From contig CAMVOY010000016.1 in NCBI GenBank assembly GCA_947169235.1, positions 1 to 44,190 on the forward strand: a stretch of 44,190 bases of DNA, given 5' to 3'. The notes beneath the pieces were generated by a model that saw only the letters and a list, made by a program, of their open reading frames with translations, searched no databases and was not told the origin of the DNA. The translations under genes were made by a program, and so were the position numbers. The first letter of the stretch is position 1; each line of letters begins with the position of its first letter. Of the stretch, positions 1,297-42,750 are shown piece by piece. Source of the stretch: an uncultured Lachnospiraceae bacterium. Its GTDB lineage: Bacteria > Bacillota > Clostridia > Lachnospirales > Lachnospiraceae.

Positions 1297-2940
1297 ATGA
1301 CTATCTGGAATGTGTTCAATCTGATGGGAGGGCTTGCTCTCTTCATCTTCGGAATGAATCTTATGAGCGACGGGCTCAAGCTCGCCGCAGGTTCTTATCT
1401 CAAGACAATCCTTGAAAAACTAACCAAGAATCAGTTCATAGCAATGTGTGTCGGAGCAGGTCTTACTGCACTGATCCAGAGCTCGAATGCTATGTGTGTA
1501 ATGGTGGTCGGTTTCGTAGGAGCCGGCATGATGAAGCTGGAGCGAAGCGTCGGAGTACTGATGGGTGCAAAGATCGGTACCACCATCACCGGTCAGCTCA
1601 TCGCCTTCAATATATCGGAGATCGCGCCGGTCATCGCTTTCACCGGCGTTGTTATCATAATGATAGTTAAAAAACCGACCTGGAAAAATGTCGGCAACAT
1701 CATTACAAGTCTCGGTGTGCTTTTCATCGGTCTCGGAATGATGAGTTCTGCCATGAAACCTTTGGCGAACGAAATATGGTTCCAGGATATACTCGTAGGC
1801 GTGTCAAATCCGGTTCTTGCGATGTGCGTCGGATTCATCTTCACGGTTATCATCCAGAGTGCATCAGCTTCAGTCGGTGTACTGCAGATGATGGTGCTCA
1901 ACTCGATCATCGGCTTTGACCAGGCATTCTATATCATGCTCGGTATGAATATCGGAGCAAGTGTGGCTCCGGCACTCGCCTCTATCGGCGGACGTAAGGA
2001 TGCAAAGAGAGTTGCCTTGATCGTGGCGCTGTTCGAGTCCATCGGAATGATACTGTTTATGGTACTCACCAACGTGTTCCCGCAGATCCTCGAATGGATG
2101 GTGGCTACATCGCCGGATAACCCGTCAAGACAGATAGCGAATGCCAACACGATCTTTAACGTGGTAACCGTGCTCATACTCCTGCCGTGCTCGAAGTACC
2201 TTGTGAAGCTCTCACATCTTATCATACGCGGAGATGATGCCGAGGAGGAAGGCAATACTCTTCTGTTCATCGACACATCCGGCTATCAGACCGGAACCGT
2301 GCTCCTCGGGCAGATCGACTCTGAGGTGGGGCGTATGCAGCATCTCGCCAGGACGAACCTCGAGGCATCCACGAAGGTATTCTACGAAAAGGATGTCCTG
2401 TCCGAAAAGGACTTCCGCAAAAATGAGTCGAACTTAGACTTCCTGAATAAGGAAATAACCAATGCCCTGACCATGACCAACACGCTGAACTTATCAGCCA
2501 CAGAGGCTAACCATGCGGGACATCTGTATCATATTGTAAACGACTTCGAACGAATCGGAGATCATGCCGAGAATATGCTCGGTTACGCTCTCACGATGAA
2601 AAAGAACAAAGAAAAATTCACCGGCAAAGCGCTCAAAGACCTCAAGCAGCTTTCAAATGAGGTTTACAAGATATTCGATCTGGCGTGTGAGTATTTCTAC
2701 TCACCTGATGCGGAGACTTACCAGATCATAAACGATATGGAGGAAGGCATCGACGATATGGTCGCAAAGATGCGTAACTCAAATATCAAACGAATCAATA
2801 AGGCGAAGTGCGGTGCTACGGAGGGATTGTATTTCACGGAGATACTCGTGGATCTCGAGCGTATCGGTGACCACTCCATGAACATCGCAAAGTCCGTTAA
2901 AAAATACCCCGTATTCAAGCGCGGCGAGCAGATGGCATAA
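1297..2940 (+). CDS. Na/Pi cotransporter family protein with PhoU-like C-terminal domain
   Basis: An inner-membrane sodium/phosphate cotransporter of the NptA/YjbB type. It starts with a hydrophobic helix containing NLMGGLALFIFGMN, as family members do. The two inverted transport repeats show their QSSNAM (residue about 63) and QSASAS signatures. After eight or so membrane segments, residues about 350-545 form a PhoU-like helical domain with two ERIGDH motifs. The frame is open from 1192, but the promoter covers that codon; ATGs at 1264, 1279 and 1297 remain possible. I chose 1297 because it fits the family N-terminus and has GGGG 8-9 bp upstream. No terminator is obvious after the stop. Confidence 0.87.
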   Translation: MTIWNVFNLMGGLALFIFGMNLMSDGLKLAAGSYLKTILEKLTKNQFIAMCVGAGLTALIQSSNAMCVMVVGFVGAGMMKLERSVGVLMGAKIGTTITGQLIAFNISEIAPVIAFTGVVIIMIVKKPTWKNVGNIITSLGVLFIGLGMMSSAMKPLANEIWFQDILVGVSNPVLAMCVGFIFTVIIQSASASVGVLQMMVLNSIIGFDQAFYIMLGMNIGASVAPALASIGGRKDAKRVALIVALFESIGMILFMVLTNVFPQILEWMVATSPDNPSRQIANANTIFNVVTVLILLPCSKYLVKLSHLIIRGDDAEEEGNTLLFIDTSGYQTGTVLLGQIDSEVGRMQHLARTNLEASTKVFYEKDVLSEKDFRKNESNLDFLNKEITNALTMTNTLNLSATEANHAGHLYHIVNDFERIGDHAENMLGYALTMKKNKEKFTGKALKDLKQLSNEVYKIFDLACEYFYSPDAETYQIINDMEEGIDDMVAKMRNSNIKRINKAKCGATEGLYFTEILVDLERIGDHSMNIAKSVKKYPVFKRGEQMA

Positions 2941-27791: not shown

Positions 27792-28442
27792 TCATTTTCT
27801 GACCTTTTTTGACAGCAGGTTTCCTGCACCTTGTGAGAGCATGACCATTATGATAAGAATGGCTACGGTGGTCCAAAGCACATCCGTCTGATATCTGTAG
27901 TACCCATACTGAAGCGCCAAAGCACCCAAGCCTCCTCCGCCTATGACTCCTGCCATGGCGGAGTAGCCAAGTACTGTTGCGACATTTATGGCTCCGCCCA
28001 AAAGAAGTGAAGGCGTAGCCTCAGGGAGAATAAAATGGATAATAACGTAAATCGGCGAAGCACCCATCGATACAGCTGCTTCTATTATGCCGGGTTGTAC
28101 CTCTGATAATGAAGATTCCACCATACGGGCGACGATAGGGATCGCACCGATTGTCAAAGGTACTATAGTTGCCACGGTACCTATCGAAGATCCCGTGATA
28201 AATCTTGTAACCGGAATAAACAATACAAGCAGGATCAAAAACGGAAGCGATCTGAATATGTTCACTATCAAACCTATCACGAAGTTTACGGGACGGTTTT
28301 CAAGTATCCTTCCCTTGCCTGTCGCATACAGGACTATCCCGAGCGGAAGTCCGATGATATATGCAAACAGCGCTCCAAAGAAGGTCATGACCAGAGTCTC
28401 CCAAACCCCATTCAATATAGCATTTATTATATACTCATTCAT
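27792..28442 (-). CDS. metI: Methionine ABC transporter permease
   Basis: A 216-residue inner-membrane permease of the MetI family with five membrane helices and the EAA loop (ESSLSEVQPGIIEAAVSMGA, residues about 113-132). It starts 11 bp after the metN stop. With MetQ and MetN it forms the D/L-methionine importer. Length is typical. Confidence 0.93.
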   Translation of the reverse strand: MNEYIINAILNGVWETLVMTFFGALFAYIIGLPLGIVLYATGKGRILENRPVNFVIGLIVNIFRSLPFLILLVLFIPVTRFITGSSIGTVATIVPLTIGAIPIVARMVESSLSEVQPGIIEAAVSMGASPIYVIIHFILPEATPSLLLGGAINVATVLGYSAMAGVIGGGGLGALALQYGYYRYQTDVLWTTVAILIIMVMLSQGAGNLLSKKVRK

Positions 28443-28453
28443 CCGATCGCCCC

Positions 28454-29221
28454 CTATATCCCGAGTCCATTGTTCACGTAGTAATCAAGAATTGTCTCTG
28501 ATCGCTTTTTACTTTTTGCTGCTTCAAATGCTTCTTCCACATCACCTACATATGCAAGTGTTCCCTCGTCTATTATAGCCACCCTGTCACATATCTTTTT
28601 TACCACCGACATCTCATGCGTGATTATAACAACAGTGAGCTTTCTCTTTTCATTTATCTCTTTTAACAGGTCCAGGATCTCCCCGGTGATCTTCGGATCC
28701 AGCGCACTTGTCGCCTCATCACACAGAAGCACCTTCGGATCCGCAGCAAGCGCTCTGGCTATCGCAACGCGCTGCTTCTGGCCACCTGAGAGCCTCGACG
28801 GATATTCATTTTTCTTTTCCTCGAGGCCTACTACTTTCAGCATCTCAAGTGCTTTTTTCTTTCTTTCACCGCGTGGTAGTCCTGCGATCTTTAATGGCTG
28901 CATCACATTTTCTATCACGTTTCTTTGTTGCAAAAGGTTGAAACTCTGAAAGATCATCGCGATCGATCTTCTGGCCTTTCTGAGCTCTGCAGGGTTTAAA
29001 CGAGCGAGATCCTGATCGTAGTAGTTTACGGTTCCCGCCGATACCTCCTCAAGCCTGTTGAGTGTTCTGACAAGCGTGGATTTACCCGCACCACTCATAC
29101 CGATGATACCGAATATCTCTCCTTCATTTATCTGAAGACTTACATCTTTTAGGGCATGAAAACCCTTGCCGTCATTGTTATAGATCTTTGATACTTTATC
29201 AAGTTTAAATACGGTAGACAA
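28454..29221 (-). CDS. metN: Methionine ABC transporter ATPase lacking the NIL domain
   Basis: A 255-residue ATPase with Walker A GMSGAGKST, Q-loop, signature LSGGQKQR, Walker B VLLCDEATSAL and switch His (VIITHEM). It ends about 90 residues short of E. coli-type MetN, so the C-terminal NIL/ACT-like domain that binds methionine and inhibits transport is absent. The frame opens with GTG at 29230, but that codon overlaps the AGGGAGGTG ribosome site; TTG at 29221 is placed 5 bp after it and is chosen as start. A tRNA-like element lies 26 bp upstream. Confidence 0.9.
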   Translation of the reverse strand: MSTVFKLDKVSKIYNNDGKGFHALKDVSLQINEGEIFGIIGMSGAGKSTLVRTLNRLEEVSAGTVNYYDQDLARLNPAELRKARRSIAMIFQSFNLLQQRNVIENVMQPLKIAGLPRGERKKKALEMLKVVGLEEKKNEYPSRLSGGQKQRVAIARALAADPKVLLCDEATSALDPKITGEILDLLKEINEKRKLTVVIITHEMSVVKKICDRVAIIDEGTLAYVGDVEEAFEAAKSKKRSETILDYYVNNGLGI

Positions 29222-29246
29222 AGCTTTCACCTCCCTCTTTTTTTAC

Positions 29247-29316
29247 GATGCTGGTCGGACTCGAACCGACAACTTCGGCGTATGATGCCTATGCTATTCC
29301 CCGCGGCCACAGCATC
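29247..29316 (-). tRNA. tRNA-Met(CAU)-like element in the metN leader, possibly a tRNA mimic or pseudo-tRNA
   Basis: The minus strand folds as a 70-nt cloverleaf: a perfect 7-bp acceptor stem GATGCTG/CAGCATC, an anticodon stem with one A-G mismatch around loop ATCATAC (anticodon CAT, U33 present), a 4-nt variable loop and a perfect 5-bp T arm GTCGG-TTCGAGT-CCGAC. The D arm is poor: only G10-C and C11-G pair well, and the usual A14 is C. No CCA is encoded and the discriminator would be G. It lies between the alcohol dehydrogenase stop and metN, 26 bp before the metN start. It may be a real tRNA, a decayed one, or a regulatory mimic. Confidence 0.6.
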
Positions 29317-29318
29317 AC

Positions 29319-29339
29319 ATAGAGCATTATCAGCTCTAT
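29319..29339 (-). repeat. Short hairpin before the tRNA-like element
   Basis: Inverted repeat ATAGAGC-N7-GCTCTAT at 29319-29339, overlapping the alcohol dehydrogenase stop codon and ending 2 bp before the tRNA-like element. There is no T run, so it is not a terminator; a processing or protection role is possible. Confidence 0.4.
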
Positions 29340-30496
29340 ATTGCGAGTTTTAATACCTCTGTAAAACCCTTTTCATCCAATGGCTCATAGTGACCCACCG
29401 GTCCATTTTTAGTTGCTCTTTTTGCCATGATATCGAAATCCTTATCATCGATACCCAGCTCCGTAAGAGTTGTTTTTAATCCTATCTTTTTAAAGAAGCT
29501 TTCAAGTTCCTCAGACAGTTTATAAGCTCTTTCTTTTTCGGTGTAATCATACGGATCGACTCCGAAAACCCTGCTTGCAAGCAAGGCAAGTCTCCATGGT
29601 TTCTTTTCGGCCATGTATTTCGTCCATGCGACAAATACGACAGCCATACCTTCTCCGTGTGTGATACCGTACTGAGCTGATAGCTCATGTTCTATACGGT
29701 GCGATCCCCAATCGGCACGTCTGCCTGCATCAAGGAAATTGTTGTGGGCTACACTCGCGAGCCACTGCACCTCAGCTCTGGCATTTATATCATGCAGATC
29801 CTCCTGCAATCGGTCCGCATTTAATAATAATGCCCTGATCGCCCCTTCGATCAGATAATCCGTCGTATCAGAATTCTTTTCGTCAGAGAAGTAACGCTCC
29901 AGCAGATGAGCAAGAACGTCTGCCACTCCGACGAATGTCTGATACTCTGGAAGTCCCGCAGTGAACTTAGGGTTCATGATAGCAAACTTAGGGATGATCC
30001 GGTCATCCTCGAATCCCAGCTTCCATTCACCGCTCGAAAGGATCGCCGCATTCGATGTCTCCGAACCGCTCGATGCGGTCGTGGCGATAACTCCTATCGG
30101 AAGGACCTCTTCGGGTGTCACCCCTTTGTCAAAGAAATCCCACACATCCCCGTCATAAGGGATACCGATGGCGACCGCCTTCGCGGTATCGATGGAGCTC
30201 CCTCCACCGACCGCAAGGACAAAGTCAACTTTTTCTTTCTTTCCTTTATCAACCAAATCTCTTACAAGTTCGATGGTCGGATTCGGTACTACATTTCCGT
30301 TTTCGCTAAAAAATATCCCGAGCTCATCCACCGCTTCTTTTATAACGGAATATATTCCGAGATCCTTGATGAAGTCTCCGCTGTAAACCAGCAGAAGTGA
30401 CTTCACTTTATAGGAAGCGAGAAGGTCCTTTATACTCTTTTCACTTTCTTCTCCAAAAACTATTTTTGCCGGATTATAATACTCAAAACCAATCAT
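29336..30496 (-). CDS. Iron-containing alcohol dehydrogenase
   Basis: A 386-residue group III (Fe-dependent) alcohol dehydrogenase of the butanol-dehydrogenase branch, NAD(P)-dependent. It shows the GGGSSIDTAKA nucleotide loop (residues about 98-108) and metal-site segments ADVLAHLLERYF and HRIEHELSAQYGITHGEGMA. The ATG has GGAGGATAACG upstream. It is placed between metQ and metN in the same orientation, which is an odd insertion for a methionine importer. It might act on an aldehyde made by sulfur amino acid breakdown (for example methional or a sulfo-aldehyde), or be unrelated. Confidence 0.9.
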   Translation of the reverse strand: MIGFEYYNPAKIVFGEESEKSIKDLLASYKVKSLLLVYSGDFIKDLGIYSVIKEAVDELGIFFSENGNVVPNPTIELVRDLVDKGKKEKVDFVLAVGGGSSIDTAKAVAIGIPYDGDVWDFFDKGVTPEEVLPIGVIATTASSGSETSNAAILSSGEWKLGFEDDRIIPKFAIMNPKFTAGLPEYQTFVGVADVLAHLLERYFSDEKNSDTTDYLIEGAIRALLLNADRLQEDLHDINARAEVQWLASVAHNNFLDAGRRADWGSHRIEHELSAQYGITHGEGMAVVFVAWTKYMAEKKPWRLALLASRVFGVDPYDYTEKERAYKLSEELESFFKKIGLKTTLTELGIDDKDFDIMAKRATKNGPVGHYEPLDEKGFTEVLKLAI

Positions 30497-30565: not shown

Positions 30566-31459
30566 TTACTGGAGCGGAACTACCGCGCCGTCATATTTAC
30601 CGTTAATGAAATCTGAGATTTCCTTGCTCTGCAGAACCTCTACGAGAGTCTTGATCGCAGGATCATCCTTCTTTGCCGGTGATGTTGCGATGATGTTTCC
30701 GTAAGTTTTAGCAGCGAGTCCGTCATTTGCCTCTACAGCGAGCGCATCCTTAACATGAAGGCCACCCTCGATAGCGTAGTTACCGTTGATGACTGCTACG
30801 TCTACATCAGGAAGTGCGTTTACAAGCTGCTCCGGGGCGAGCTCCTTGAACTCGATATTCTTCGGATTCTCAACGATATCTGCTACCGTTGCCTCGATAC
30901 CGGCATCCTCCTTAAGTGTGAGGATCCCTTCCTGAGCAAGCAGAAGGAGAGCTCTCGCCTCGTTTGTAACATTGTTCGGTACAGCTACGACTGCACCCTT
31001 CGGAAGGTCCTTAAGGTCCTTTGTCTTGCCCGCATAGATTCCAAACGGCTCATAGTGGATAGCACCTACTGATACCAGATCGGATCCGTTCTCCTCGTTG
31101 AACTGATCAAGATAAGGAACATGCTGGAAATAGTTCGCGTCAAGGCTTCCCTCGATAACGCCCGTATTCGGTGTTACCGAATCCTCAAGCTGTACTACCT
31201 CAAGCTCGATTCCCTTGTCAGCAAGTATCGGCTTAGCCTGCTCCAGGATCTCCGAGTGCGGAGTGATATTTGCTCCGACTACAAGCTTCACTGTCTCTGT
31301 TTCGGCAGCCGGTGTCTCCTCTGTCTGAGTCTGCTCGGTCTGCGCCTCCTCTGTAGCTTTTGTTGATGCTGATGCTCCCTCTCCGCATCCTACAAGTGCG
31401 AATGCAAGCGCGAATGAAAGTACTCCTGATACTACGTTTTTAATAAATGTCTTTTTCAT
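30566..31459 (-). CDS. metQ: MetQ/NlpA family methionine-binding lipoprotein
   Basis: A 297-residue extracytoplasmic solute-binding lipoprotein. The signal peptide ends in lipobox ALVGC (Cys25), followed by a Glu/Thr-rich linker. The binding domain has NlpA features: VKLVVGANITPHSEILEQ, DANYFQHVPYLDQFNEENG, EPFGIYAGK and ALVVIP-like region GAVVAVPNNVTNEARALLL. It is the first structural gene after leader A and its terminator, then adh, metN and metI. GAGAGGT lies upstream of the ATG. Confidence 0.93.
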   Translation of the reverse strand: MKKTFIKNVVSGVLSFALAFALVGCGEGASASTKATEEAQTEQTQTEETPAAETETVKLVVGANITPHSEILEQAKPILADKGIELEVVQLEDSVTPNTGVIEGSLDANYFQHVPYLDQFNEENGSDLVSVGAIHYEPFGIYAGKTKDLKDLPKGAVVAVPNNVTNEARALLLLAQEGILTLKEDAGIEATVADIVENPKNIEFKELAPEQLVNALPDVDVAVINGNYAIEGGLHVKDALAVEANDGLAAKTYGNIIATSPAKKDDPAIKTLVEVLQSKEISDFINGKYDGAVVPLQ

Positions 31460-31559
31460 GATTAACTACCTCTCTTTCTCTTTGTATTCTTTCTGTATGG
31501 ATGTTTTATATGATAACCCTCGGATGCATTCCGGATCTGCACCCTCGGAGTTTATCCGC

Positions 31560-31590
31560 AAAAAAATGCCCGGGACTCCTCTTCCCGGGC
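31560..31590 (-). terminator. Leader A attenuator terminator
   Basis: On the minus strand GCCCGGGA (31583-31590), 7-nt loop, TCCCGGGC (31568-31575), then A, T-rich run of seven T. It separates leader peptide A from metQ by about 100 bp. Its 5' arm can instead pair with 31670-31677 in the leader ORF. Confidence 0.85.
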
Positions 31591-31613
31591 TTACATTTGA
31601 TATGGCAAACAAC

Positions 31614-31733
31614 TCATGGTTTTATAAGGCGCACGGATAATAAACCGAACGCCCCGGCCATATCACTTCCCCGGGAACCAAGCATTCGACTGCACATGGT
31701 TTCACACATCATCATTTTCATCATGTCGGTCAT
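31614..31733 (-). CDS. Leader peptide A: 39 residues, Met-rich, upstream of metQ
   Basis: An ATG at 31733 has GGAGGT 7 bp upstream and a TGA at 31614. The peptide has nine Met and two Cys in 39 residues; it opens MTDMMKMMMCETMCSRM and ends MAGAFGLLSVRLIKP. The distance, strong ribosome site, Met codons before a methionine importer, and a following terminator fit a transcription-attenuation leader. Segment 31670-31677 (TTCCCGGG in the RNA, codons 19-21) is complementary to the 5' arm of the terminator, giving an antiterminator when a ribosome stalls on early Met codons. From residue 14 on it matches leader peptide B. The role is inferred. Confidence 0.75.
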   Translation of the reverse strand: MTDMMKMMMCETMCSRMLGSRGSDMAGAFGLLSVRLIKP

Positions 31734-31765
31734 AATCCGCACCTCCTTTTCTCTAGGTTGGTATC

Positions 31766-31794
31766 ATCATATCATACGGTATGCTTTTTGTAAA
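31766..31794 (-). promoter_or_regulatory. Promoter of the leader A-metQ unit
   Basis: On the minus strand TTTACA (31789-31794), 17 bp, TATGAT (31766-31771). It begins 12 bp after the CYS-box-like triad. Confidence 0.7.
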
Positions 31795-31806
31795 TTACGT
31801 GGATTT

Positions 31807-31834
31807 AATCATCCGCGATAAGCAATACTTATCA
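31807..31834 (-). promoter_or_regulatory. CYS-box-like LysR operator upstream of leader A
   Basis: Read on the minus strand: TGATA-N9-TATCG-N4-TGATT. The reported CmbR CYS-box of streptococci is TGATA-N9-TATCA-N2-4-TGATA. The site overlaps the stop codon of the upstream ATPase gene and ends 12 bp before the -35. Confidence 0.65.
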
Positions 31835-41348: not shown

Positions 41349-42506
41349 TCAGTTCTTCGCTGAGTTTTTGATAGCCTGCTCGATATCTGCGATAAGGTCA
41401 TCCGCATCCTCGATACCGACTGATAATCTTATCAGTTCATCTACGATACCGACCTTTTGTCTGATATCTGCAGGTATAGCCGCGTGCGTCATGCTCGCGG
41501 GGTGACAGACTAAGGACTCCACTCCACCCAGGCTCTCGGCCAGGGTAACAAGCTTGAGATTTTTGAAAAATGCCTTGTAGTCATACTTTTCATCGAGCAC
41601 AAATGATATCATCGCGCCCGGGCCGTCGGCCTGTTTTTTCTGAGTCTCATATCCCGGGTCATCAGGTAACCCCGGAAAGTATACCTTACTTACATAGCCG
41701 CTTTCTTTTAACCATGTTGCGATCTTTACTGCGTTTTGCACGTGTCTGTCCATGCGGACTCCAAGTGTTTTGATCCCTCTTATCACAAGGAAGCTGTCCC
41801 ACGGACCAAGCACGCCGCCGATCGAGTTCTGAAGGTAGTAAAGTCGGTCAGCCAATTCCTTATCCCTTACGGCTACGAGTCCTGATACTGTATCGCTATG
41901 GCCTCCGAGATACTTTGTTCCACTGTGTATGACTATATCAGCCCCGAGGGTCAACGGCCTTTGCAGATACGGTGTTAAAAATGTATTGTCAACGATCACG
42001 AGTTTTCCATGCTTATGTGCCACATCTGCAACCGCCTTAATATCAGTTACGCTAAGAAGTGGGTTTGCCGGAGTCTCTATGTATACAGCGACCACACTGT
42101 CATCTATCGCCGCCTCCACAAGATCGGTTTTTGACGAATCTACTATCTCATACGTGATCCCAAAGTTTTTAAAAACATTGTCAAGGATCCTGAATGTCCC
42201 ACCGTAAATATTGTCAGATACGACCAGCTTATCTCCCTCCTTAAAAAGTGAAAGCACTGTATCTATTGCTGCAAGCCCGGATGCAAATGCAAGTCCGTAC
42301 TCGCCTCCCTCGAGATCGGCGATAAGCTTTTCTAAAGCTGCTCTTGTGGGATTTCCCGTACGGGAATACTCCCATCCGCCTCTCATCTGACCAAGTCCGT
42401 CCTGTTTATATGTAGAAGTCTGATATACAGGTACGCTTACCGCTCCTGTGGTTTCATCTCCATCTATCCCTCCGTGAATCAGAAGGGAGTTAATATGTAA
42501 GCTCAT
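41349..42506 (-). CDS. mccB: Cystathionine gamma-lyase / gamma-synthase family enzyme (MccB-like)
   Basis: A 385-residue PLP enzyme. Motifs are SVPVYQTSTY, WEYSRTGNPTRAALE, AFASGLAAIDTVL, VDNTFLTPYLQRPL and the PLP-lysine IHSGTKYLGGHSD, then LAESLGGVESLVCHPASMTHA. Length (380-390) fits MetB/MccB rather than MetY. With mccA next to it, cystathionine gamma-lyase (homocysteine to cysteine route) is most likely; gamma-synthase activity cannot be excluded. ATGs at 42512 and 42506 are close; 42506 is 7 bp after GGAG. It is the first enzyme gene after leader B. Confidence 0.9.
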   Translation of the reverse strand: MSLHINSLLIHGGIDGDETTGAVSVPVYQTSTYKQDGLGQMRGGWEYSRTGNPTRAALEKLIADLEGGEYGLAFASGLAAIDTVLSLFKEGDKLVVSDNIYGGTFRILDNVFKNFGITYEIVDSSKTDLVEAAIDDSVVAVYIETPANPLLSVTDIKAVADVAHKHGKLVIVDNTFLTPYLQRPLTLGADIVIHSGTKYLGGHSDTVSGLVAVRDKELADRLYYLQNSIGGVLGPWDSFLVIRGIKTLGVRMDRHVQNAVKIATWLKESGYVSKVYFPGLPDDPGYETQKKQADGPGAMISFVLDEKYDYKAFFKNLKLVTLAESLGGVESLVCHPASMTHAAIPADIRQKVGIVDELIRLSVGIEDADDLIADIEQAIKNSAKN

Positions 42507-42576
42507 AGTCATTCTCCTTTCTTAGGCGTGAGCCACATACATGCTCGGATTCTTCAGCTATGCTCACACCTTTCAC

Positions 42577-42606
42577 ACAAAATATGCCCGGGTGGGTGAC
42601 CCGGGC
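42577..42606 (-). terminator. Leader B attenuator terminator
   Basis: On the minus strand GCCCGGGT (42599-42606), 5-nt loop, ACCCGGGC (42586-42593), then ATATTTTGT. The T run is weaker than in leader A. The 5' arm can pair with CCCGGGC at 42686-42692 in the leader ORF. Confidence 0.75.
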
Positions 42607-42624
42607 AAGTAGCAAGATTATGGC

Positions 42625-42750
42625 TTAACAACATCGTTTGATGATCGAGCGCACGGAAGATAAACCGAACGCCCCAGCCATACCCGCCCGGGAATCCTGC
42701 ATTCGACAGCAAGTGGTTTTACTTGTTTTCATAAACATCGAAGCGGCCAT
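42625..42750 (-). CDS. Leader peptide B: 41 residues, Cys/Met-rich, upstream of mccB
   Basis: An ATG at 42750 has GGAGGT 7 bp upstream, in the same context as leader A, and TAA at 42625. The peptide has five Met and four Cys: it opens MAASMFMKTSKTTCCRM and ends in CC just before the stop. It aligns with leader A from residue 14: C-[CS]-R-M at 14-17, S-R at 20-21, then MAGAFGL and SVR. A terminator starts 18 nt after the stop, and codons 19-22 can pair with its 5' arm. Stalling at Cys/Met codons would favour expression of the mccBA operon. The role is inferred. Confidence 0.72.
   Translation of the reverse strand: MAASMFMKTSKTTCCRMQDSRAGMAGAFGLSSVRSIIKRCC

Follow-up and report, generated by a model that had tools for sequence, protein, structure and literature searches.

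The DNA upstream of metQ in an uncultured Lachnospiraceae bacterium raises the question of how methionine uptake is switched on in a genome in which the familiar regulatory RNAs are not apparent at this locus. Sulfur amino-acid genes in Firmicutes are usually attributed to S-boxes, T-boxes, and protein regulators, and attenuation by leader peptides has long been known. The initial annotation of the window, i.e., of the whole stretch of 44,190 nucleotides analysed here, reported no S-box or T-box and proposed ribosome-mediated attenuation in which stalling at Met codons opens the metQ unit. According to the present analysis, the element very probably belongs to a mostly clostridial family of ribosome-mediated transcription attenuators in which Met and Cys codons are read; its translated leader and two competing hairpins probably turn on methionine import under a shortage of sulfur amino acids.

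The features of the locus are collected in Table 1. The ORF of 39 codons plus TGA that had been described ahead of metQ, Met-rich and with a strong ribosome site, is read directly in the sequence (31733–31614, minus strand), as are its nine Met codons (1, 4, 5, 7, 8, 9, 13, 17, and 25, five of them within codons 4–9); the terminator (31589–31568), beginning 24 nt past the stop, and the exact complementarity of its 5' arm, region 3, to the region 2 segment in codons 19–21 are confirmed as well. Four features were absent from the initial annotation: the sister copy of the leader (42750–42625), the Cys at codons 10 and 14, a second helix of the antiterminator (GATATGGC/GCCATATC), and a gene resembling tRNA(CAU) within the putative metQ transcription unit.

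Table 1. Features of the metQ and metB-like loci in the window.
Feature	Position	Strand	Basis or remark
Palindrome GATAAGTATTGCTTATC upstream of -35	31817..31833	-	sequence; possible operator
Promoter-like TTTACA (31794-31789), 17 nt, TATGAT (31771-31766)	31766..31794	-	sequence reading; putative
Shine-Dalgarno AAGGAGG of leader ORF	31742..31748	-	sequence; comparison of core-frame ATG and Shine-Dalgarno
Leader start ATG	31733-31731	-	followed by MTDMMKMMMCETMCSRMLGSRGSDMAGAFGLLSVRLIKP, then TGA 31616-31614
Leader peptide ORF, 39 codons + TGA	31614..31733	-	proposed sensor: Met/Cys codons 4-17
Region 2, antiterminator 5' strand TTCCCGGG	31670..31677	-	within codons 19-21
Second antiterminator helix, 5' strand GATATGGC	31657..31664	-	complement 31606-31599; paired in minimum-energy fold
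Second antiterminator helix, 3' strand GCCATATC	31599..31606	-	minimum-energy fold
Region 3 CCCGGGAA, terminator 5' arm and antiterminator 3' strand	31582..31589	-	sequence, pairing, covariation, folding
Region 4, terminator 3' arm TCCCGGGC (31575-31568), then A + U7 tract	31560..31575	-	sequence
metQ, first regulated gene (proposed), NlpA/MetQ lipoprotein	30566..31459	-	Pfam PF03180, E 2.6e-83; NCBIfam MetQ models below curated cut-offs
Iron-containing alcohol dehydrogenase (adh) in metQ unit	29336..30496	-	PF00465
Divergent tRNA, anticodon CAU, between adh and metN	29245..29317	-	ARAGORN; Rfam tRNA, 41 bits; relatives
metN-like ATPase	28454..29230	-	best NCBIfam model MetN, below cut-off
metI permease	27792..28442	-	NCBIfam PRK10782 MetI, above cut-off
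Sister leader ORF MAASMFMKTSKTTCCRMQDSRAGMAGAFGLSSVRSIIKRCC	42625..42750	-	homology search and sequence; same window
Sister leader terminator arms (TGCCCGGG ... ACCCGGGCA)	42585..42607	-	sequence, folding
metB-like gene, Cys/Met metabolism PLP enzyme, after sister leader	41349..42512	-	PF01053, E 1.4e-151

In the proposed mechanism, RNA polymerase would start just upstream and a ribosome would load onto the leader ORF. When charged Met (and/or Cys) tRNA is short, the ribosome would halt in the Met/Cys cluster before codon 17 and leave region 2 free to pair with region 3 in an antiterminator extended by the second helix; the terminator would not form and metQ-adh-tRNA-metN-metI, presumably as one unit, would be transcribed. 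When the amino acids are plentiful, the ribosome would cross region 2 to the stop codon, regions 3 and 4 would pair, and transcription would end in the U tract. The isolated metQ leader RNA is predicted to fold into the antiterminator form including the second helix (-66.5 kcal/mol), with a z of -2.14 and 4 of 200 shuffles equally good, a moderate excess only, so that the real support is comparative and comes from the frame and codons, the complementary arms, and their covariation.

Searches with the leader DNA in 39 genomes of the genus gave seven matches at E 0.01 or better; a match of 28 bases in G031 is not a leader, the leader sequence being absent there. The leader peptide, used as a query against 299 genomes of the bacterial family, found its own genome and three genomes of other genera, in which the matches all precede OAH-sulfhydrylase-like genes. 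A covariance model of the 92-nt core, whose inner hairpin of eight pairs has both sides changed at four pairs, matched 45 of 397 genomes of the bacterial family (42 of 334 genera), 16 of 391 genomes of the class, with G445, G503, G700, and G764 weak and without the motif, and, at E 1e-5, four of 398 genomes of the phylum, two of them new (G1051 and G1159); the large model searches used stricter filters, so that their figures are lower bounds. A DNA pattern run over named species genomes found at least 119 stretches, and the 80 among the matches listed belong mainly to Lachnospiraceae, Ruminococcaceae, Oscillospiraceae, Saccharofermentans, and other Clostridia records, together with two Anaerovibrio, one Christensenella, one Eggerthellaceae assembly, and one Sorangium, the last (L139) being set aside as probably due to chance. 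Five of the 59 R1 model matches (L078–L081 and L089; 23–26 bits) have no motif and were excluded before counting; model leaders were taken from 30 of the 45 matching genomes of the bacterial family, the other 15, plus L209 and L210 from the phylum, staying outside the leader counts. The 134 leaders left after exclusions give, once identical cores are collapsed, at least 130 distinct ones (54 from the model and 76 from the pattern matches listed), and since they are related the family counts are not independent. The leader family is mostly in Clostridia and mostly ahead of sulfur amino-acid genes. Members are also present in the two Anaerovibrio genomes, which we take to be Negativicutes, and in the Eggerthellaceae assembly (L093, L132, and L159), which suggest transfer beyond Clostridia or, for the Eggerthellaceae, a mis-binned contig.

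An ATG with a Shine-Dalgarno sequence of at least five bases lies in the core frame of 111 of the 130 leaders and in the other two frames of 2 and 0, and the core frame stays open for at least 51 nt beyond the core in 127 of the 130, the corresponding figures for the other frames being 79 and 60. Codon positions were counted in the 54 model-found leaders, the pattern-found ones having been preselected for TGTCGAATG: ATG is at +1 in all 54, CGA at 0 in 52, Cys at -1 in 48 and at -2 in 49, and Met at -3 in 41. The block of Cys and Met codons grows and shrinks by whole codons, as in MCMCMCRM, KMCCMCMCRM, MCCMWMCCRM, MMCRM, and MCMRM. The near-invariant Cys before CGA-ATG, usually with Met beside it, indicates that the family probably reads both cysteine and methionine.

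Two explanations that dispense with ribosome stalling can be weighed against the frame. A metabolite-binding riboswitch, its conserved core open in one frame by accident, would agree with the strong nucleotide conservation, with the two-sided changes in half of the inner hairpin, and with the CGA-ATG, which is conserved beyond what a spacer requires and in this respect counts against an attenuator; the restriction of start and Shine-Dalgarno sequence to one frame, the variation of the Cys/Met block by whole codons with its composition kept, and the lack of an Rfam match in the window element or in the leaders of 16 loci make it very unlikely. In particular, the Rfam search of the metQ element returned nothing at the gathering threshold, confirming the absence of an S-box or T-box noted in the initial annotation, and below threshold only unrelated families at E up to 10, while on the loci of the 16 relatives only a tRNA matched. 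In the bacterium's own genome no SAM-I riboswitch matched (neither RF00162 nor another SAM class occurs at the element), and a single T-box match, on contig C5, is below the gathering score, none being at the metQ element. The ORF could otherwise encode a functional Met/Cys-rich small protein, for example a metal-binding one, with an unrelated terminator downstream, which would fit its composition and strong ribosome site; this is most improbable, considering that the peptide tails are variable or nearly absent, that the pairing with the terminator is conserved, and that no Pfam family (six peptides) or NCBIfam family (seven peptides) was matched. The leader that ends right past the core (L071) counts against the attenuator too.

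The second line of support is the switch itself. The helix between regions 2 and 3 is better than all of 20 shuffles in 110 of the 125 leaders with enough sequence, and region 4 is succeeded by a U-rich tail (five or more T within 10 nt) in 118 of these 125. At least nine of ten fixed positions are paired in 39 of the 54 model-found leaders (3.8% with region 2 shuffled), and GC-to-AT double changes occur five times each at two positions in this set; in the 48 of the 54 leaders with eight or more pairs, 459 of 480 cells are paired, and 1000 partner swaps never gave more than 437, region 3 having been located in the covariation set by best complementarity. A further pairing near region 3, CGAATG with CATTTG, was dismissed; the metB-type leaders do not have it. 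The covariation also bears on the idea that the nascent peptide (CCRM..SR...MAGAF) itself detects a small molecule and, like TnaC, brings about arrest of the ribosome, which would be in line with several conserved residues and with ORFs that mostly extend about 20 codons beyond the Cys/Met cluster. The residues past CCRM, however, overlie the RNA helices and change together with them, SR becoming SQ where CGG in region 2 becomes CAG and region 3 compensates (e.g., L049, L053, L062, and L064), and the peptide tails vary; arrest by the peptide is consequently regarded as unlikely.

The attenuator further requires that the stall position decides the fold, and this was computed by parking a ribosome, with its leading edge taken as 12–13 nt beyond the start of the A site, codon by codon on 112 leaders picked for having both helices and a U-rich tail. 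Without region 4, the antiterminator reaches 0.5 in 112 of 112 leaders for each stall from -8 to CGA, a result that holds by construction because the helices were required for selection, in 28 of 112 at AUG, and in none at +2 to +5. Once region 4 is included, the antiterminator reaches 0.5 in 76–92 of the 112 for stalls from -8 to -1, with 92 at the last Cys codon, in 64 at CGA, in 9 at AUG, and in none at +2 to +5. By this profile, the Cys/Met cluster occupies the latest codons at which stalling can open the operon, and CGA-AUG is spacer-like. A ribosome placed at the stop codon brings the terminator to 0.5 in only 71 of the 112 leaders, which counts against the attenuator.

The two copies in the window behave less simply. 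In the metQ leader at equilibrium, the antiterminator prevails for stalls at codons 8–13 (M8, M9, C10, and M13; 0.57–0.96) and also at codons 1–3 (0.66–0.73), codon 4 is a tie, and the terminator prevails at codons 5–7 and from codon 14 onward, against the attenuator; before region 4 is made, codons 1–16 give the antiterminator (0.75 or more). For the sister leader, which precedes a metB-like gene, the equilibrium fold is the terminator at every stall, again counting against the attenuator, and before region 4 codons 1–17 give the antiterminator. The sister copy therefore requires kinetic, i.e., co-transcriptional, folding, and the simple equilibrium picture is weakened; in the model, metQ leader stalls at codons 5–7 and from 14 on would need it too. 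Four of the features by which attenuators are generally recognized are found here: a short ORF with a ribosome site near the presumed transcript start (comparative evidence, predicted translation), regulatory codons that fit the pathway, an antiterminator and an intrinsic terminator that are mutually exclusive, and, by computation, a fold decided by the stall position, with kinetic folding needed by the window copies for some stalls.

The genes downstream agree with a sensor of sulfur amino acids. The first downstream ORF, found for 127 of the 130 leaders and grouped by BLASTP with domains scanned in representatives of each group, is in 77 of the 127 a PLP enzyme of Cys/Met metabolism in the OAH-sulfhydrylase/MetB (OAHS/MetB) cluster, in 38 an NlpA and/or family-3 binding lipoprotein, in five an amino-acid ABC permease, in two CysK, in two an M20 peptidase, and in one a glycyl-radical enzyme, the remaining two being without assignment. 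The family-3-containing lipoproteins number 17, of which 11 also have an NlpA domain and six have family-3 only, some being cut by the end of the locus; the label "cystine-binding protein" for these 17 was dropped in favour of their domains, family-3 with or without NlpA. The 11 proteins that combine family-3 and NlpA/MetQ domains (L044, L049, L053, L058, L059, L062, L064, L090, L125, L149, and L156) were assigned by BLASTP, and L062 also by Pfam; several leaders of such lipoproteins alternate Met and Cys codons. The glycyl-radical enzyme (L063, 1740–3092) is closest to sulfopropanediol dehydratase, below the model cut-off, hinting that sulfonate use may come under the same leader control.

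In the eight codons before CGA, leaders of family-3-containing genes have 3.0 Cys codons (17 leaders) versus 2.05 in MetQ-type leaders (21 leaders; permutation p 2.5e-4), or 3.12 versus 2.06 when similar leaders are collapsed (16 and 16; p 1.5e-4), the tests collapsing similar leaders at most and ignoring deeper relatedness. Met codons are more numerous in MetQ-type than in OAHS/MetB leaders (1.81 versus 1.21, p 0.004); between MetQ-type and family-3 leaders they do not differ significantly (p 0.13–0.22), which counts against the attenuator.

Taken together, the reading frame, the codons used, the covariation, the geometry of stalling, and the genes downstream strongly support the ribosome-mediated attenuation first proposed. 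As for stalling at Met codons as the sensor, stalls at M8, M9, C10, and M13 favour the antiterminator at equilibrium, and the codon-wise results indicate that the five Met codons within 4–9 are only part of the likely metQ sensor. The amino acid sensed is most likely methionine at the metQ leader, a specificity that we only infer, and would be cysteine in the sister and in many relatives. It is possible, though doubtful, that the metQ attenuator senses mainly cysteine, or both amino acids, with Met codons secondary: Cys beside CGA-ATG is the hallmark of the family, codons 10 and 14 are still Cys, most of the 21 MetQ-type leaders keep MCC or MMCC ahead of CGA, and the Cys and Met pools are connected through pathway genes encoded nearby, as is established. 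Against cysteine stand the equilibrium fold, in which a stall at C14 favours the terminator, and the comparison with the sister, since the metQ leader has nine Met codons versus five and two Cys codons versus four, Ser instead of Cys at codon -1, and has lost the Cys-Cys ahead of the stop.

Within the genome, the two leaders share 75% identity over query positions 84–202, and the shift of the metQ copy to Met is consistent with retuning towards methionine. Leaders of metB-like genes are present in G000, G001, G019, G005, G006, and G024, and metQ leaders in G000, G001, and G019. In G006 one leader is followed by metB, cysK, ahpD, metQ, and adh on a single contig with no second leader; G001 has the same order with a second leader between ahpD and metQ, and in G000 and G019 additional genes are interposed. 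From this distribution, the metQ leader appears to be a duplicated copy retuned towards methionine; the metB leader of G006 is also Met-rich, so the direction of individual codon changes is not certain. Separately, G000 and G001 share the leader block 31556–31830 at 99% identity over 275 nt, with different flanks on both sides, which suggests a recent exchange of the block.

A CAU tRNA lies between adh and metN in G000, G001, and G019, and a close relative precedes a metN-like ORF in G006 (positions for this set: window 29245–29317, minus strand; L211 6373–6445; L212 15622–15693; L220 196–267), which ruled out the idea that the operon tRNA is confined to genomes with the metQ leader. The window tRNA is 81% identical to tRNA-Cys(GCA) in G021 and G022 and 78% identical to that of G028, near a cysK-like ORF (named by eye), and only 55–62% identical to the three other CAU tRNAs and the regular tRNA-Cys of its own genome; its anticodon may possibly have switched from Cys to Met. 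In L221 and L222, relatives with a Cys anticodon (1501–1572, minus strand) sit after an ACCTAT..AAAGTAGGT box resembling that of many leaders; a Cys/Met PLP-enzyme-like ORF (by eye) lies within 1.5 kb downstream of the tRNA in L221, and none is among the three longest ORFs near the tRNA in L222. A wider and tentative proposal, which we hold to be somewhat short of probable, is that of one homologous, re-addressable attenuator of Cys/Met genes, broad and scattered in Clostridia, whose sensed amino acid would be determined by a handful of codons preceding CGA-AUG as a fixed ruler. In the present lineage, duplication would have placed a copy into an original gene order metB-cysK-ahpD-metQ, and the copy would then have shifted from Cys to Met; next to it lies the operon tRNA with anticodon CAU, whose relatives close to sulfur genes in other members of the genus have the Cys anticodon GCA.

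The region of the putative promoters has its own motifs. A CCTATTGACATAGTAGG-like palindrome covers the -35 in 101 of 129 leaders (e.g., L075, L070, and L062), compared with 14 of 714 stretches drawn at random from the same loci, and is a candidate operator that we take to resemble the CymR/Rrf2 type. Among the 28 leaders without this CCTA..TAGG box, GATAA-N7-TTATC is found in 9 of the 12 inspected, upstream of TTTACA or a similar -35 (window 31833–31817, L024, L025, L027, L043, L067, L068, L069, and L071), and is perhaps an activator site.

A scattered translated attenuator without a match in Rfam 15 (window and loci of 16 relatives) would give many Clostridia a further layer of regulation, rumen or gut assemblies accounting for many of the matches listed, and would help to explain a genome without a detected SAM-I riboswitch. 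The family would also represent a natural series in which codon swaps may change the amino acid sensed, and it provides a seed alignment and a signature with which unassigned 5' regions and short ORFs could be annotated. The open-access literature, which was searched without subscription journals and preprints, gave no report of this leader family.

Attenuators of the trpL type have a leader ORF with regulatory codons, an antiterminator/terminator switch, and a U tract. The metQ family shares these features and differs in that its regulatory codons specify two sulfur amino acids, that a near-invariant CGA-AUG separates the stall codons from region 2, and that its ORF runs through region 2 and the inner hairpin. 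In Clostridium perfringens, a Cys T-box and an S-box are described as controlling Cys and Met genes through premature termination (PMC2940859, in part); these sense tRNA or SAM by RNA without a translated leader, unlike the metQ family. Regular leader-peptide attenuation in Firmicutes is described for hisZ/hisS* of bacilli, with histidine codons instead of those of the metQ family (PMC2965389, excerpt). Short Cys-codon ORFs precede cys/cbs operons in Mycobacterium, Propionibacterium, and Bifidobacterium; according to the portion of the report at hand, their Cys runs are near the stop and the mycobacterial regions have no conserved terminator hairpin (PMC1262725). A Met/Cys-rich leader peptide before a methionine importer is shared with metL, which precedes metNIQ in the actinobacterium Streptomyces lividans and contains ...CMCRRMC...; metL is given in the available text as having a leaderless start and no typical Rho-independent terminator, whereas the metQ leader has a Shine-Dalgarno sequence and an intrinsic terminator (PMC8079986). 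The uORFC-8-2 motif before cysS of Rhodobacterales is likewise a Cys-codon uORF with a terminator, positions 14 and 15 usually being taken by its two tandem Cys codons, and was proposed to act by ribosome-mediated attenuation (PMC8632094, partial text); it occurs in alphaproteobacteria and only before cysS, and the same partial text mentions neither Met codons nor CGA-AUG, so that organisms and genes, rather than motif sequence, set the metQ family apart from it. The mechanism is of a known kind; the leader family looks new.
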